Source of the DNA: Thermophilibacter immobilis
GTDB lineage: Bacteria > Actinomycetota > Coriobacteriia > Coriobacteriales > Atopobiaceae
Reading direction: 5' to 3'
Assembly (NCBI RefSeq): GCF_015277515.1
Contig: NZ_CP063767.1
Coordinates: forward strand, 496,001-560,000
Length of the DNA: 64,000 nucleotides
Numbering within the stretch: position 1 is the first letter of the stretch; every line of letters starts with the position of its first letter. Below the pieces are notes generated by a model. The model was given only the letters and a program-made list of their open reading frames with translations, was not told where the DNA came from and did no database searches. Positions 55,495 through 64,000 of this stretch are shown here, piece by piece. A program made the translations under genes and the position numbers.

Positions 55495-55500
55495 GAAAAG

Positions 55501-56283
55501 GGGACGAGAAGTAAGATGGTGATCTAGTGGCCCGCCTCTTCAGCTCGTAAAAGTGTGTCCCCTTCTTCAATGATCGGTTGAGGGAGGAGACATTTTTATC
55601 GTAAAACGCAAGATTTTAGCAAGGCCTCTAACGTCAATGCAGTGAGATGTTTTTGCAGGAAGCCCTAGGCTTAATTGATGCGAACGCCACAAATAGAAGT
55701 TTGATGGATATACAGGCCTATGCAGTGGAGCTCGATTTTGTAAGCAAAAGTTTATCCTGCAAGTTTGCTGAAGAAGAGAAAAAGGTAAGTTCCTTAAGTT
55801 AACCTTGAACTATATGTTGGCCAGGAGGGTTCATTTAAGGTATTTTACCTGTGAATTAAATATCAAAAATATATTTTTTATGCCAGATCTCCCCAGGCTG
55901 TTGAGGGACAGTTCATGACTGCTGCCCCAGTTCTAAACTAATTTTATAGATTAATAAAATGATTTTATAAGAATAAGAAAAAAATAATGAGAAGTGAGTG
56001 AAAAGAACGGATGACAGGGAGGAAGGTGTTGTCTCCACCCTGTAGGCAGCCCTAAAAAGAAGCGCGAGGAGGCGTGGATAGTCAAAAAAAGGAAGTGGGC
56101 ACTATCTGTGAAACGCGTTAATAAGAGGGACTACCGTTATTTTTTGAAGGGTGAGCTGTTGAACAAGAATCATAAAATCAGTATCATCGATAAACGTATC
56201 AATATGTAACAAGCAGAGTGTTACTTGCAAGCAGTAGGGAAGGTGCTTGCAGGCAGATCCTTCACAGTAAGGAGAGGACGATT
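55501..56283. other. AT-rich non-coding stretch before the surface-protein island
   Basis: About 780 bp, strikingly richer in A and T than the rest of the window, especially 55850-56000. One short frame (55647-55802, 51 residues starting MFLQEALGLIDANATNRSLM) looks faintly protein-like but has no good ribosome site; it may be a gene remnant. Otherwise I see no gene. Position next to tRNA-Thr fits acquired DNA, but no repeated tRNA end is found in the window. Confidence 0.4.
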
Positions 56284-58767
56284 ATGAACAGGCAGAAGCG
56301 GGGGCGTCTGAGAGCCGTCTTTGCGGTGGCAATGATGCTGACCCTGGGGCTTGCTATGCCGTGGCGCATGGCATTCGGTGACGAGACGTCCCAGATGGTC
56401 ACGCAAGAGCAGAGCAGAGCGGGGGGGGGGGGGGTACTCCTTGATGAGGTAGCGTCATCGTCTGATGATGCTACCGTTACTACTTCGGAGAAGAGCACAG
56501 ACGTTATTGATGCAACGAGCTCCGATTCCGAAGAAGCTACGACCACGGCCACGGATGATGTCAACACCGTGGCGCCTCGGCAAGACGCAGACGAATCTGC
56601 GATAACCGCGACTTCCCTGTCCGTAAGTGCGCGGGCTGCGGGAGTCACCTCCGAGACCGAGCTGTCCGCTGCGATTGCGGCTGCGCCCACGAATGGCACC
56701 GAGACCGTTATCACCATCGCGGGAGACCTCACCCTTACCAAGAAGATCACCCTTGCGACAGATCAGAACATACGCCTTGTAGATGACGGCACGGCTCGCA
56801 CCGTGACCTTCAAGGGGCTCGTGCCGGCTTTCACGGTGGCATCGGGCGCCACGCTCACCATCTCCACAAGCTCCGCGGACAATGGACTGCTCGTGTTCGA
56901 TGGTGGCAGCAAAATCGCTACGAGCAACACTGGTTTTATCTCCTGCCAGGGAACTCTCAACTGGGAGGGCGGCACGCTCCAGAACGTGTACTTCACGTCC
57001 AGCGCCGGCAAGGGGCCCATCGTGGTGTCGGGGGCCGAAGCGTCCATGCAACTCACCGAGGGGCTCTTTACCGGAAACCAGACGGGATACTTCAGCGGAG
57101 TTATCACCGTCAACGGCGGAGCCTCTCTCGTCATGGACGGCGGAACGATCACGCAGAACAAGGCGGACTCGAACCGCGGCGCCCCGGTCTACATCTCTGC
57201 GGTAGACAGTGCGGAGAAGGCGACTTCCTTCGTCATGAACGGGGGCACCATCTCCCATAACGAGGGCTCCCTGAGCGGTGGCGTCTTCGTGGGGAACAAC
57301 GATCAGGAATTTAGCCCGGGCAGCGCTATTGCTACTGCTGTAATTAACGAAGGGGCTGTGATTGCCGACAACTCCTCCTCCGACATGGGCGGCGGCGTCA
57401 CGGTCTTTATGGCCGGAAGACTCACCATGAGCGGAGGAACCGTCTCGAACAACACTGCTGTGACCATGGGCGGCGGCGTGTGCCTATGGGACGGCTGGGT
57501 TGGCTATTTTAAGTCTCTCTATATGAGTTCCTATAACTGGACCGAGGAGCAGGCGCAGTCCTTTTGGAAGACAAAGTGGAGCGTATGGGCTCCTGCCGCC
57601 TTCACCATGAACGGCGGCACCATCACCGGCAACCAGGCGCCTGATGATCCCAGCAATAACGCGAGCGGTACGGGCGGTGGCGTGTACGCCGGATCCTCTG
57701 CGATAACGCTTAACGCGGGAACCATCTCCAATAACTTTGCCGGCAAGCAGGGCGGTGGCGTCTACGTGCCCGCCGTTCCCTACGAGATTCAGATGAACAA
57801 GCCGCTGGTGACGGGCAATACCGCAAGCATCATCGGCGGAGGCCTCTGGTCCTGCCCCACGGGCGACGTGCACGTCTACGTCAACAACGGTGGTGCCATC
57901 TACGGCAATACCGCCATGGGCGCGGGCAACGACATGGCATCGATTGTGAAGAAGGCTGCAGCGACGGGCGACCCCTATGCGCTTCTCCTCTCGAACCGCA
58001 TTCTCGGCGGCGGGCGCGCCGCCTGGTATGATGACGGTGCCATCAAGACCGCAGGTGACTTAGGCGAGGCTGAGGAGGGTGCGGCGCGCTTCCCGGGCAC
58101 GAACCTGTATGACGGCTCGGTCACCGAGACTGCGAAGGATCTTGCCCTGAACGACAAGGTCGAGTCCGTGGCCGCCCAGGCTGCGTCTACCGTCGCAACG
58201 CTCTCTATCACGGGCAACTCCGCTCCGCGCGGTGGCGGCATCGGTACCAACGGTTCCGTCATCATCGGCATGGACGACCCAGTGCGCGACGTCACAGTCA
58301 CCAAGGCCTGGGACGATAGCAATGACACGCGCGGCCTCCAGCCTGAGTCCGTCACAGTGTACCTGCTCCGTGACGGCGTCCGGATTGACACGGCGGTGCT
58401 CAACGCCGCCAATAGCTGGACTGCAACGTTCAAGGACCTTCCGCAGCACAAAGACGGGGACAAAACCACAGACTCCGTCTACACTGTGAGCGAGAACCAG
58501 GCGGACGGCTATAAGCAGCCCGTGATTACGGGTGACGCGACGAGCGGCTTCATCATCACCAACACCGTCGTCCCGGCGACGCCGACCCCGCCGACGCCGC
58601 AAACGCCTCCGACGGCCACGACGACGACCACGGTTACCAGGAAGGTCGCGATTCCCAAGACCGGGGACACGACCCCCTTGACGGCTATTGGAGTTGCCGC
58701 CGGCGTGGGAGCGCTCCTGATTGCGGGTGCCCTTATCGCGCGCTACCGCGGGCGCAAGGAGAACTAG
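56284..58767 (+). CDS. Sortase-anchored beta-helix surface protein with phase-variable poly-G tract
   Basis: The 827-residue protein has a signal peptide (residues 1-~34), then four glycines (residues 47-50) encoded by a G14 tract, then a region of short Gly/Asn-rich repeats (TMNGGTITGN type) expected to form a right-handed beta-helix. Next comes a Cna-B-type domain (VTVTKAWDDSNDTRGLQPESV, about 670-765) and a Thr/Pro linker. The sorting signal is IPKTGD (790-795) with a hydrophobic helix and RYRGRKEN tail. It should be cell-wall anchored and act in adhesion. As read here the frame is open (ON). AAGGAGAGG precedes ATG 56284. Its length and repeats differ from the next gene, but both share the G-tract design. 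Confidence 0.88.
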   Translation: MNRQKRGRLRAVFAVAMMLTLGLAMPWRMAFGDETSQMVTQEQSRAGGGGVLLDEVASSSDDATVTTSEKSTDVIDATSSDSEEATTTATDDVNTVAPRQDADESAITATSLSVSARAAGVTSETELSAAIAAAPTNGTETVITIAGDLTLTKKITLATDQNIRLVDDGTARTVTFKGLVPAFTVASGATLTISTSSADNGLLVFDGGSKIATSNTGFISCQGTLNWEGGTLQNVYFTSSAGKGPIVVSGAEASMQLTEGLFTGNQTGYFSGVITVNGGASLVMDGGTITQNKADSNRGAPVYISAVDSAEKATSFVMNGGTISHNEGSLSGGVFVGNNDQEFSPGSAIATAVINEGAVIADNSSSDMGGGVTVFMAGRLTMSGGTVSNNTAVTMGGGVCLWDGWVGYFKSLYMSSYNWTEEQAQSFWKTKWSVWAPAAFTMNGGTITGNQAPDDPSNNASGTGGGVYAGSSAITLNAGTISNNFAGKQGGGVYVPAVPYEIQMNKPLVTGNTASIIGGGLWSCPTGDVHVYVNNGGAIYGNTAMGAGNDMASIVKKAAATGDPYALLLSNRILGGGRAAWYDDGAIKTAGDLGEAEEGAARFPGTNLYDGSVTETAKDLALNDKVESVAAQAASTVATLSITGNSAPRGGGIGTNGSVIIGMDDPVRDVTVTKAWDDSNDTRGLQPESVTVYLLRDGVRIDTAVLNAANSWTATFKDLPQHKDGDKTTDSVYTVSENQADGYKQPVITGDATSGFIITNTVVPATPTPPTPQTPPTATTTTTVTRKVAIPKTGDTTPLTAIGVAAGVGALLIAGALIARYRGRKEN
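56421..56434 (+). repeat. Poly-G tract (G14) in the first surface-protein gene
   Basis: Fourteen consecutive G residues occur early in the coding sequence, immediately followed by TACTCC. The present length keeps the frame open; gain or loss of a base not divisible by three would truncate the protein. Such tracts are classic slipped-strand phase-variation sites. Confidence 0.85.
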
Positions 58768-58800
58768 GACGTAGGTAGGCCATACACCTCTGCTCGATGA

Positions 58801-58832
58801 GCTCGGGGACTCTTAAGGTCTCCGGGCTTTTT
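58801..58832 (+). terminator. Terminator after the first surface-protein gene
   Basis: GCTCGGGGAC (58801-58810) pairs with GTCTCCGGGC (58818-58827) allowing two G-U pairs, followed by TTTTT. It separates the two surface-protein genes. Confidence 0.75.
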
Positions 58833-59025
58833 GCAGGCTTGCGGACCTTTTTTGGCTGCGGGCTCCACTCCGGGTGCTCCCTTCACGAGGTAAATCTTCA
58901 ACTTCAGATTGAATCTTGAAGAAAACCTTTGGTTTTTGATAGAGTGCTAGAGGTATGCAATAGATCTGTCAGCACACGGGACCGCATAAACCGGCACGAG
59001 CCGGCAAAAGAGGAGGGATTCGCAA

Positions 59026-62000
59026 ATGAGACGGACGAAAAAGCGGATGGGGGAGGGGGGGGGGTACTTAGTATCCTTGCGGCAGTTTTGCTTGCACTGC
59101 AGCTGCCGTTCCTGCTCGTCACGCAGGCCCATGCGGAAGGGAGCTCGGTTAGCTTCCCCTTCTTCACGAGCGTAGAGCTTACCAGCTCCGACGGGACGCC
59201 CCTCGGGGAGGACGTCGCAAAAGACGCTCCCGTCAAGATCACCTACGACTTCAAAATCCCAGATGACGCAACGGTCAACGAGGGAGATACCTACTCCTTC
59301 ACGGTGCCGGAGCAGATTGCGCTTTCCGGCCCGATTACCCAGGACCTGATGCTGGATGGCCAGAAGGTCGCCACGGTCAACGTCACAGCAGACGGAGTCG
59401 GCACGGTCACCTTCACGGAGTTCGTCTCGGCCCACAAGGGAGTGGGCGGCACCTTCTCGATTACCACGCGGTTCAACGTCGAGAAGATCGAGAACACCGA
59501 GATCGTGAAGATCCCCTTCGAGGTGGGCGGAAAGATCGAATACGTCGAGGTGCACTTCGCGCAGCCCGAGGCGACAAACTCCAAGACGGGCACCTACGAC
59601 GCGGCCACGGGAACCATCACCTGGACGCTCACTCTCAACTCTAACAAGACGACCATAACTGCGGGCAGTATGCTGTCTGACGTCATAGCTCCTGGTGGCG
59701 CTGCCGGGCAGACCTATGTCGACGGCACCTTCAAGGTCACGTCGGGCAGCGGGACCGTCTATGACAGCTTGACTTCCACGGGTTCGGGGACGTTTTCCTA
59801 CGCTCCCGTGGCCGATGACAGCAGTACCACGGGCAGCCTCGCCTACGAGTTCGCCAACGCGTTCGAGGACGTCGTCACGGTTACCTACCAGACGAAGCTC
59901 ACGGATCCCTCGCAGTACTTTGGCAAGCAGGTCACGAACAGCGCGACCTTCACCCATGATGGCACCGACCAGGACATTGACGGGAAGGTTGACGTGCCCA
60001 CGCCGACCTATCTCACCAAGACCGGCGCGTACAACGAGGAAACCGGGCAGATTGACTGGACCATCACCTTCAACCCCGACGCCCTCAAGCTGCACAACGT
60101 GAAGATTACTGACACCCTGCCAGAGGGGCTCAGCTTGGACGAGGACTCCGTCAAGCTGGACGGGGACGCCTCTACCTCCTTCACGTATGAGAACGGCACC
60201 CTCACCTACAGCGCGGGAGACATCGACGCCTCGCATACCCTGACCTTCTCGACGAACCTTCCTGAGGACTACTGGCAGCAGAACCACGACTCGGGGGAGT
60301 ACAAGAACACGGCTACCCTGACCGCCGATGACAACGCCTACCTTGAGGGCGGCACCTCGAACACCTCCGAGGGCGTGGGACCGGGCAACTCCGTCATTAG
60401 GAAGACGGCGCTGGGCTATGATGCCGAGACCCATCGGATCACCTGGCAGATCGTCGTCAACGCGAACAAGAATGAACTGTCTGACGCGACCATCACCGAC
60501 ACTCTCTCCAAGGGGCAGAAGTATCTTCCGGATACCTTTACCATCACGGACGGCGCTCCTACCAATACGCTGACGGGTGCACTGTCCTTCTCCTCAACTG
60601 ACCCGGCAGACCCCGCCATGACCGAGACGGTGCTCACGTATCACTTCGGCGCCACCTCCGACACCTATACCATCACGTATCAGACCGAGCTGACGGACCC
60701 CTCGGTGTGGGCCGGCAACACGAGCGGCTCCTACGAGAACTTGGTCACCCTGTCTCCCGGGGGCGGGGTCAAGGACTCGACCACGGGCTCGACCCAGAAG
60801 GTCAACCCGACCGTCATCAGCAAGGATGGGGTCTCCTACGACTACGCCACGCACGAGCTGACGTGGAGCGTCAAGGTCAACGAGAGCCAGGTCCCCCTCA
60901 CGGGCGTCGTCGTCACCGACCCTCTCACGGGCAATGGTCTCGATGACTTTGACCTGGACGAGAGCAGCATTCAGGTGGATGGCGCGCCCCTTGCAGCTTC
61001 CTCCTACACCTATGACACGGAGTCGAAGCTCCTTACCATCAGCCTCGGTGACCTCAACGGTGCGGACCTCGCATCGCGCACGAAGACCATCACGTTCACG
61101 ATGAAGCTCAACAAGGCCGGAGAGGACTACGACGAGTACTTCGGCCAGAACGGCACCAAGACCATCACCAATGAGGCCACGCTGAAGAGCGACCAGAATC
61201 CCTCCACCAAGGACAAGGGGACTCAGGACATCAAGAACGCCCTCGTCGACAAGGCGGGCTACTACACCTCGGGCAAGGCCTACATCGACTGGGCCGTCGA
61301 GGTGAACCAGAACGGGATCGCCCTCGACGGCGTCACCCTGACCGACCAGCTGCAGGAGGGCCTGGCGCTCGACACCTCCTCGGTGAAGCTCTATGCGCAG
61401 ACCCTGAACGCAGACGGCTCCCTGACGCCCGCCCCAACCTATGCTGACGGAGAGCTGACGGTAAGCGGCACGCCCATCGACCTGACGGCCGCCAACGTTG
61501 CGTATGACGCGGAGACGCGCACGTTCACCTTCACCATGCCCGACGGGGTGGCAGACGGACAGCCCTGCCTGCTGGTCTTCCGCACGACGGTCGATCCGGC
61601 CTACGCCAGCGGGACGACCTTCTCGAACTCCATCTCCCTGACGAGCTCCATGTATCACGAGGAGACCACCTCGAGCGAGCAGGAGGTGGCCTACTCGACC
61701 TCCGATGGCTCCGCATGGGGCTCGACGGGAGACGTAACGCTCACCAAGCAGCAGAGCGAGACCGAGACGCCCCTCTCGGGCGCGACGTTCGCGCTGTACG
61801 ACTCCTACGGCAACCTCATCCGCACCTCAGACGCCACGGATGGCGACGGCCAGACCGTCCTCTCCCTTCTTAACTACAACACGCTCTACACGGTCAGGGA
61901 GCAGGCGGCCCCCACCGACCATGAGTCCACGGATGCGTCCTACTCGTTCAAGCTGCTTAAGAGCGGCGGCATTCAGCTCTGCGATGAACAGGGCAATCCC

Positions 62001-64000
62001 GTGGGCGACCCCGTGGCGAGCCTTCCGATCTTCTCGGACGATCTGAAGACGGGCAGCGTCACCTTTACCAAGCTGGGTGACGGTGGCCAGCCGCTCGCCG
62101 GTGCCGAGTTCACCCTGTGCGACACCGACGGCAATCCCGTCGAAGGCTTCGAGCCTCAGACGAGCGATGCGGATGGCAGGGTCACGTTTGCTGACGTGCC
62201 CTATGGCGACTACCAGATCGTGGAGACCAAGGCGCCTGCTGGCTACGCGTCGCTCACGATCAGCGTCTCGCTCCACGACTCGAACGACGCGATCGTGTCC
62301 GAGGGCACCACGCACGCGCTTGACCTGGGCGACCAGACGGATAGCGCTCAGGGTAGCCTGACCCTGACCAAGTACTCCGCTGAGTACGAGGGCGGCTCCA
62401 CGGCCGTGATGTCTGACATAGAGTTCCAGGTACTTGATTTTGCGGGCAACGTCATGGACGCGCAGACGACCAACGCCGACGGAACAGCCACCTTTTCTGA
62501 CCTCCCCCTGGGTAGCTACACGCTTCACGAGGTGTCAACGCCCGCAGACTATCAGACCTTTGCTGACGTCCCCTTTACGATCTCCGCCGAGCAAAGCGCG
62601 GCGGAGCGCCAGGTTTTCCTTGCCGTCACGAACGTCAAGGAGTCGGGGACCATCCGGCTCACCAAGGTCAGCGCCAAGGATGACGCGCCGCTTGGGGGCG
62701 CCACGTTCATGCTCTACGACGCCACGGGCACCAACGTCATCTCCAACGCGTCGGGCCCCCTGACGGCGATCTCCGACGCCTCCGGCATGGTCGAGCTGAG
62801 TGACGTCCCCTACGGCGACTACGTCCTGCGTGAGACGACGCCCGCCTCCAACCACGAGGTCTGTGACGACATCGCCATCTCCCTTCGTGATGACAACGAT
62901 GCAATCATCGAGGGCACGCTTGACCTGGGGAGCGTCATCGACGAGCCCTCCACCGGAACCGTGAGCTTTGTCAAGACCGACGGGGCCACGCCGCTCCGGG
63001 GCGCCGAGTTCTCCCTGGCCCGTGCCGACGGCGGCTTCATCGCGACGGCCACGTCTGACGCGGACGGCGTCGTGACGTTCGAGGGCGTTCCCTACTCGGA
63101 CTCCGCGTACACCCTCCGCGAGACAAAGACCCCCAACGACGACGTCTACTTCAAGGTCGACGACGTGACCTTCACGCTCAACGACAAAAACGCCGACGTG
63201 GTCACAGACGGCCAGACGCACGTCTTGACGCTCGCTGACCAGGTCGACGCTCCGTTTGGCAGCATCACCCTCCTCAAGACCGACGAGACGGGTACGGCAC
63301 CGCTCTCGGGCGCCACGTTCCAGCTCCTTGACGCCTCAGGACAGGTGGTCGCAACGGCGACGACCGGTGAGAACGGCATCACCTCGTTCTCCGAGCTACC
63401 GCTGAGTGCCACGGGTGAGACCACCTACACGCTCCATGAGACGTTCGCACCGGGAGACTATGCCCTGGCAGATGACGTCATCGTGACTCTTTCCAACTCC
63501 GATGCCGCCGGCGCGCGCGACGCCTCCGTCACCATCGCGGACGTGCTTAAGGTGGGCTCCATAACCCTCACCAAGGTCGACGCGGTCACGGGAGCCCCGC
63601 TCGCGGGCGCGACGTTCACCCTCTACGACCTCGATGGCAGCCTCGTCCTCGGCGCTAATGGCCTGCCGATCTCGGCGACCACCGGCACTGACGGAACCCT
63701 CACGATCCCCGACGTCACCTATGGTGACTACGAGCTTAGGGAGACGACGGTTCCCGAGGGCTACCAGGCGGCCGATCCGCTGGCCATCTCGCTGCACGAC
63801 GACAACGACCGTGTGTCTGACGGCGTGCTCTCGCTCGGCAAGGTGGCGGATGCTCCCGTCTCTGCTACTACCACCACCACTACCGTTAAGCCCAAGCTTC
63901 CTGGCACCGGCGACGCGAGCTTCACCGGCATGGGCGGCCTTCTCCTGGCCGCCGTGGCCTCACTCGGCGCGGCTAGCGCCATGCGTCGCTCGCACGGTAG
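59026..64000 (+). CDS. Large LPGTG sortase-anchored multi-domain surface protein, frame interrupted at a poly-G tract (phase OFF), 3' end cut by window
   Basis: From ATG 59026 (GGAGGG upstream) the frame meets a G10 tract at 59055-59064 and then stops at 59173-59175 (49 residues). In the +1 frame after the tract the sequence runs open to the window edge. It encodes a signal peptide core (VLSILAAVLLALQLPFLLVTQAHA) and several isopeptide/collagen-binding-like domains (for example KTGAYNEETGQIDWTITFN). Seven SpaA-like repeats follow (starts near 61730, 62057, 62361, 62649, 62958, 63258 and 63555; PLSGATFALYD type). It ends with a Thr linker, LPGTGD and a hydrophobic anchor. One added G, or loss of two, would restore about 1,660 residues. 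A pilin/adhesin role is inferred. Confidence 0.8.
59055..59064 (+). repeat. Poly-G tract (G10) in the second surface-protein gene
   Basis: Ten G residues after the eighth to tenth codons, followed by TACTTA, the same junction (G-run then TACT) as in the first gene. With ten Gs the coding frame is broken; eleven would open it. Confidence 0.85.

Follow-up and report, generated by a model that had tools for sequence, protein, structure and literature searches.

Poly-G tracts at the start of two adjacent sortase-anchored surface protein genes of Thermophilibacter immobilis: probable phase variation and recurrence of the arrangement in Coriobacteriales

The window analyzed in this study, that is, the whole stretch of 64 kb (C1:496001-560000), belongs to the single-contig genome of Thermophilibacter immobilis (2,163,714 bases) and has a GC content of 65.7%. 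The 16S gene of the genome contains an exact target of ATO291, the Atopobium-cluster probe, which suggests a position in the Atopobium/Olsenella part of the Coriobacteriia. The window contains two adjacent genes on the forward strand, hereafter gene 1 and gene 2, each of which carries a long G tract close to its start codon (Table 1). Apart from these two tracts, G14 and G10, no G or C run in the window reaches eight bases. The region immediately upstream of gene 1 (55500-56250), to which no gene could be assigned, has a GC content of only 38%, and the pair is followed on its 3' side by a phosphate permease-like gene and a DUF47-like gene (both named by reading).

Table 1. Positions of the features of the two genes in the window
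Feature	Position	Strand	Basis or remark
Gene 1, Shine-Dalgarno-like AGGAG	56270..56274	+	sequence
Gene 1, 827 codons and stop (ATG 56284, stop 58765-58767)	56284..58767	+	open with G14 (ON)
Gene 1, signal peptide MNRQKRGRLRAVFAVAMMLTLGLAMPWRMAFG	56284..56379	+	inspection and hydropathy
Gene 1, G14 tract, 137 nt past ATG, directly after signal peptide	56421..56434	+	
Gene 1, Cna_B domain	58291..58566	+	Pfam PF05738, E=7.7e-23; fold match 1d2o, E=3e-6
Gene 1, IPKTGD sortase motif, then hydrophobic helix and positive tail	58651..58668	+	
Gene 2, Shine-Dalgarno GAGGAGG	59010..59016	+	sequence
Gene 2, ATG 59026 with its reading frame at G10 (49 codons, TAG 59173-59175; OFF)	59026..59175	+	
Gene 2, G10 tract, 29 nt past ATG	59055..59064	+	
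Gene 2, long frame (4.9 kb), beginning inside G10	59064..64000	+	runs to 64007, 7 nt past window
Gene 2, LPGTGD sortase motif	63897..63914	+	

In the assembly, gene 1 is open from its start codon to its stop with the tract at G14, which agrees with what a previous sequence-only reading of this DNA had proposed. The encoded protein consists of a signal peptide, a beta-strand-rich repeat body, a Cna_B domain and the IPKTGD motif. In the two wrong frames, stops are encountered 15 and 7 nt past the tract. A beta-helix fold was considered for the repeat body and rejected: the structural model is weak (mean pLDDT 59), and significant matches to solved structures were obtained for the Cna_B part only. 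Homologues of gene 1 (31-40% identity) had no run of G7 or longer in the stretches read; thus, the fold of this protein does not need the tract. It should be noted that this lack of conservation of the gene 1 tract was counted against phase variation.

Gene 2 shows the opposite state. Its tract splits the signal peptide, with the charged n-region before and the hydrophobic core after it, and the frame opened at the ATG soon terminates. The long frame, which the tract separates from this ATG, encodes the signal-peptide core, a Big_8 domain, four Collagen_bind domains, seven SpaA domains and the anchor. The earlier description of a gene broken by G10, whose other frame stays open for about 4.9 kb with signal peptide, domains and LPGTGD, was correct, as was the placement of both tracts near the 5' end. 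Stops in the two wrong frames of gene 2 lie 108 and 4 nt past the tract. No homologue of gene 2 was found within the genus at E<=1e-20, which was likewise counted against phase variation, and a 25-base probe at its tract gave no match to viral contigs.

Each of the two gene products has a signal peptide, adhesin-, isopeptide- or pilin-type domains and an LPXTG-like sortase motif, which precedes a hydrophobic helix and a positively charged tail. In both genes, a homopolymer capable of slipping is located early in the coding sequence, downstream of a genuine Shine-Dalgarno sequence and ATG. The SpaH/EbpB model matched in the adhesin pair with 120.8 bits (cut-off 95); every protein of this genome scored under the cut-off of the Pfam anchor model. 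The sole sortase of the genome is located at C1:34381-34884, 517 kb from the pair, and is class B-like, with a score slightly below the model cut-off. We found no Bifidobacterium-type pilus cluster at the pair, in which more pilins and a dedicated sortase follow the pilin gene, and no site resembling a promoter was found above chance level for the two genes. Both proteins are probably located on the cell surface, and their domains suggest a role in adhesion.

We then considered whether such tracts could be expected by chance. A first-order Markov model predicted about 10 G or C runs of at least 10 bases in the 2.16-Mb genome, of which 5 were observed, and 0.06 runs of at least 14 bases, of which one was observed. 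By length alone, G10 is unexceptional, a further point counted against phase variation, and G14 is rare. The placement of the tracts is exceptional. Of the four anchored surface genes that could be recognised in this genome, two have one of the five genomic tracts of G10 or longer at their start, in sense orientation; the other two genes are located outside the window and have no nearby tract of G9 or longer. A simple estimate gave a chance of ~2e-7 for such placement. It assumes that the number of anchored genes is indeed four, and with ten of them the value would still be about 1e-6. Both tracts are followed by the same TACT sequence, and a common origin of the two was considered on this ground. 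The base after long G tracts is T in 62% of cases in the genus, compared with 21% after runs of G5-6; since T commonly follows long G tracts, the TACT present at both says little about a shared origin, and this argument was dismissed. Elsewhere in this genome, a G11 tract (109042-109052) lies directly upstream of a 1.65-kb frame, and a G9 tract (1452343-1452351) lies at the apparent end of murD, beside an ftsW-like gene (names by reading).

It is very likely that the pair represents tandem poly-G contingency loci subject to slipped-strand translational phase variation, and the ON/OFF reading proposed before is supported by both the anatomy of the genes and the comparative evidence from relatives described below. 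In this mechanism, slipped-strand mispairing during replication would alter the length of a tract situated within the first 151 nt of each coding region. Only one of the three phases would connect the ribosome start with the long frame, and the other two would meet a stop after the tract; the assembly would thus have captured gene 1 in the ON and gene 2 in the OFF state. The length of the tracts presumably does change in this organism. The two genes may plausibly switch independently, since each of them has its own tract, Shine-Dalgarno sequence and ATG.

To characterize the occurrence of this arrangement in relatives, we collected tracts of G10 or longer in the genus (30 genomes besides this one), and pattern matches across the family and the order, using one genome per species. 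In the genus and family, 21 further surface genes were identified in which a tract of G9-G12 occupies the same 5' zone. The recurrent layout comprises a Shine-Dalgarno sequence, an ATG, a few codons, G9-G12, a signal-peptide core and a surface protein of 1.2 to 6.5 kb; in a few of these genes the tract follows the signal peptide, as in gene 1. Their products contain SpaA, FctA, SHIRT, SLH, MucBP or VWA domains, frequently together with LPXTG-like anchors. A strand control yielded 14 calls of sense G tracts (one of them dubious) versus 2 calls of sense C tracts (one of which looks real). The SD-ATG-G9 pattern was detected in 30 of 140 genomes of the family (5 for the reversed control) and in 120 of 397 genomes of the order (48 for the reversed control); genome counts are used here as the fairer measure, the counts of matches being inflated by overlaps inside one tract. 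The sequence-only reading had not associated poly-G phase variation with this bacterial group. This remark could not be maintained, as the arrangement recurs in the genus, the family and the order, and poly-G phase variation has been published for other Actinobacteria (PMC9187656, PMC11287997, PMC4365076).

Several properties of the tracts bear on the mechanism. Among 23 genes, 9 were in the ON phase and 9 and 5 in the other two, with no departure from random (p=0.5). Out-of-frame stops occurred at a median of 17 nt past the tract, compared with an expectation of 61 nt derived from the same genes (permutation p=5e-5); lying so close behind the tract, they would provide clean OFF states. In addition, two genomes of the order contain dozens of paralogues with near-identical starts and flanks and tracts ranging from G9 to G14, indicating more rapid change in the tract than in the sequence around it, and orthologous tracts in leaders and promoters vary in length among species. 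Loss of MutS-type repair favours slippage. None of the 31 genomes of the genus contains a MutS_I domain; among the 14 control genomes, 11 were positive.

Long tracts were also observed at genes of other kinds. In the genomes G369 and G368, both of the same order, type IV prepilin-like genes (GFTLVELIVVIVILGIL) number at least 17 and 20, respectively; they have near-identical starts and G9-G14 right after the ATG, and 6 of 37 are in the joining phase. The open stretch from tract to prepilin motif is unusually long in these genes (39-150 codons), and the set looks like a phase-variable pilin repertoire. G147 carries two Flp/TadE-like pilin genes (GQSIIEYVLIIAIIG) with G10-G11 past the start, which have several paralogues in g39. 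Three further loci have start-proximal tracts: G11 in an apparent mannose-type PTS IID gene, G10 in an apparent membrane histidine kinase gene and G9 in an apparent glycosyltransferase gene (names by reading). In one draft genome of the genus (G001), the end of contig C29 and the start of contig C10 are both broken at the same start-proximal G9/G10 tract, and long G runs are also found at the ends of several more draft contigs of the genus.

Other tracts lie near phage-defence and transporter genes. At eight loci of the genus, a conserved short leader ORF contains G9 or G10; one phase of this ORF ends at the start codon of either BREX brxA or an HKD+Snf2 helicase gene, and the other stops early. 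The same leader precedes these two unrelated defence genes and is possibly a translation-coupling switch of phage defence. In G147 and six other g39 genomes, a brxA-like gene has a tract of G9-G10 at its own 5' end (GTGGATGTAACCACAAAAAGCGTTC-G10-TGCTCACCCGCGAGCAATTCCT). Finally, TTGCC-G8 to G12-TTCTCCTGGAGTAGAAT, found at ten listed loci and others in the genus, is an orthologous promoter-like site upstream of an ABC-transporter ATPase gene, with the tract in the -35/-10 spacer; in two species this tract is interrupted yet 10 long.

Considering that homopolymers are often miscounted, the G10 count may be off by one base even in a finished assembly, and in Bifidobacterium breve the assembled tract length differed from the majority length (PMC9187656). 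The OFF state of gene 2 might therefore reflect a sequencing or assembly error, such that the true length differs, gene 2 is permanently ON and there is little variation in the tracts. However, an error in one tract leaves unexplained the tracts of more than 20 other surface genes, in which all three phases are represented, and cannot account for the out-of-frame stops close behind the tract; even at a miscounted length, the tract would stay prone to slippage. We consider such an error unlikely as the explanation. It is also known that RNA polymerase can slip on long G runs, and some leakage of the OFF state is likely. A programmed event at the tract, either transcriptional slippage or ribosomal frameshifting, would generate a fixed share of full-length product from an unchanged genome; however, it would need a constant frame relation, and phases 0, +1 and +2 were found in 9, 9 and 5 genes, respectively, with the tracts of paralogues differing by up to five bases (G9 to G14). 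This makes a programmed event very improbable.

In the assembly, the ATG and the long ORF of gene 2 are in different frames, as would also be expected for a decaying pseudogene whose start frame was lost by a random indel. Such decay is hardly credible for a gene with a strong Shine-Dalgarno sequence and ATG, a frame still open over 4.9 kb to an intact anchor, and a break located exactly at a homopolymer, in the position used in relatives. The distribution of phases, the close stops and the tract lengths of paralogues together favor switching by slippage over error, pseudogene or programmed frameshifting. For the lineage as a whole, we lean towards the view that Coriobacteriales possess a large phasome, in which poly-G tracts between start codon and secretion signal switch repertoires of anchored adhesins and prepilins, more tracts precede phage-defence genes, the lack of MutS favours slippage, and the pair described here is one instance.

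If this is true, clonal cultures and type genomes of host-associated Coriobacteriia would be mixtures of surface states, and adhesion, immune recognition and phage sensitivity determined from a single colony would not be representative of the strain. Surface genes annotated as 'broken' would often be merely switched off. A tract between the start codon and the signal-peptide core also offers a simple signature for finding such genes in other genomes.

Our search of the open-access literature, with most subscription journals outside its scope, revealed no report of poly-G switching in Coriobacteriia, and its spread across Coriobacteriales appears undescribed in the searchable literature. The mechanism itself is not new, being known for sortase-anchored proteins in Bifidobacterium and Gardnerella. 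In B. breve UCC2003, replication slippage in the G tracts of bbr_0113 and bbr_1889 switches sortase-dependent pili (PMC9187656). This system in an actinobacterial gut commensal resembles the present one in that a G tract of ~9 to 12 lies early in the coding sequence for a sortase-anchored pilin, between a signal-peptide ORF and an anchor ORF whose frames it joins (PMC9187656). However, the B. breve gene stands first in a pilus cluster that includes a dedicated sortase (PMC9187656), whereas the pair here consists of two unrelated adjacent adhesin genes with one tract each, the only sortase being 517 kb off, and the tract of gene 2 lies inside the signal peptide. Gardnerella, also an actinobacterium, has many tracts at LPXTG and other surface genes, whose lengths differ among colonies (PMC11287997); ~70% of its G/C tracts are upstream of an ORF, whereas both tracts of the pair are in the coding 5' end. 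In Streptomyces coelicolor, a further actinobacterial case of poly-G phase variation, the G tract of pglX switches phage resistance (PMC4365076); in contrast to the pair, pglX is a phage growth limitation (defence) gene and not a surface protein gene. Campylobacter and Neisseria share slipped-strand switching of surface structures, at the translational or promoter level (PMC8355987, PMC3639595), but these are Gram-negative bacteria without sortase anchoring. The spread across the lineage is the more interesting result.
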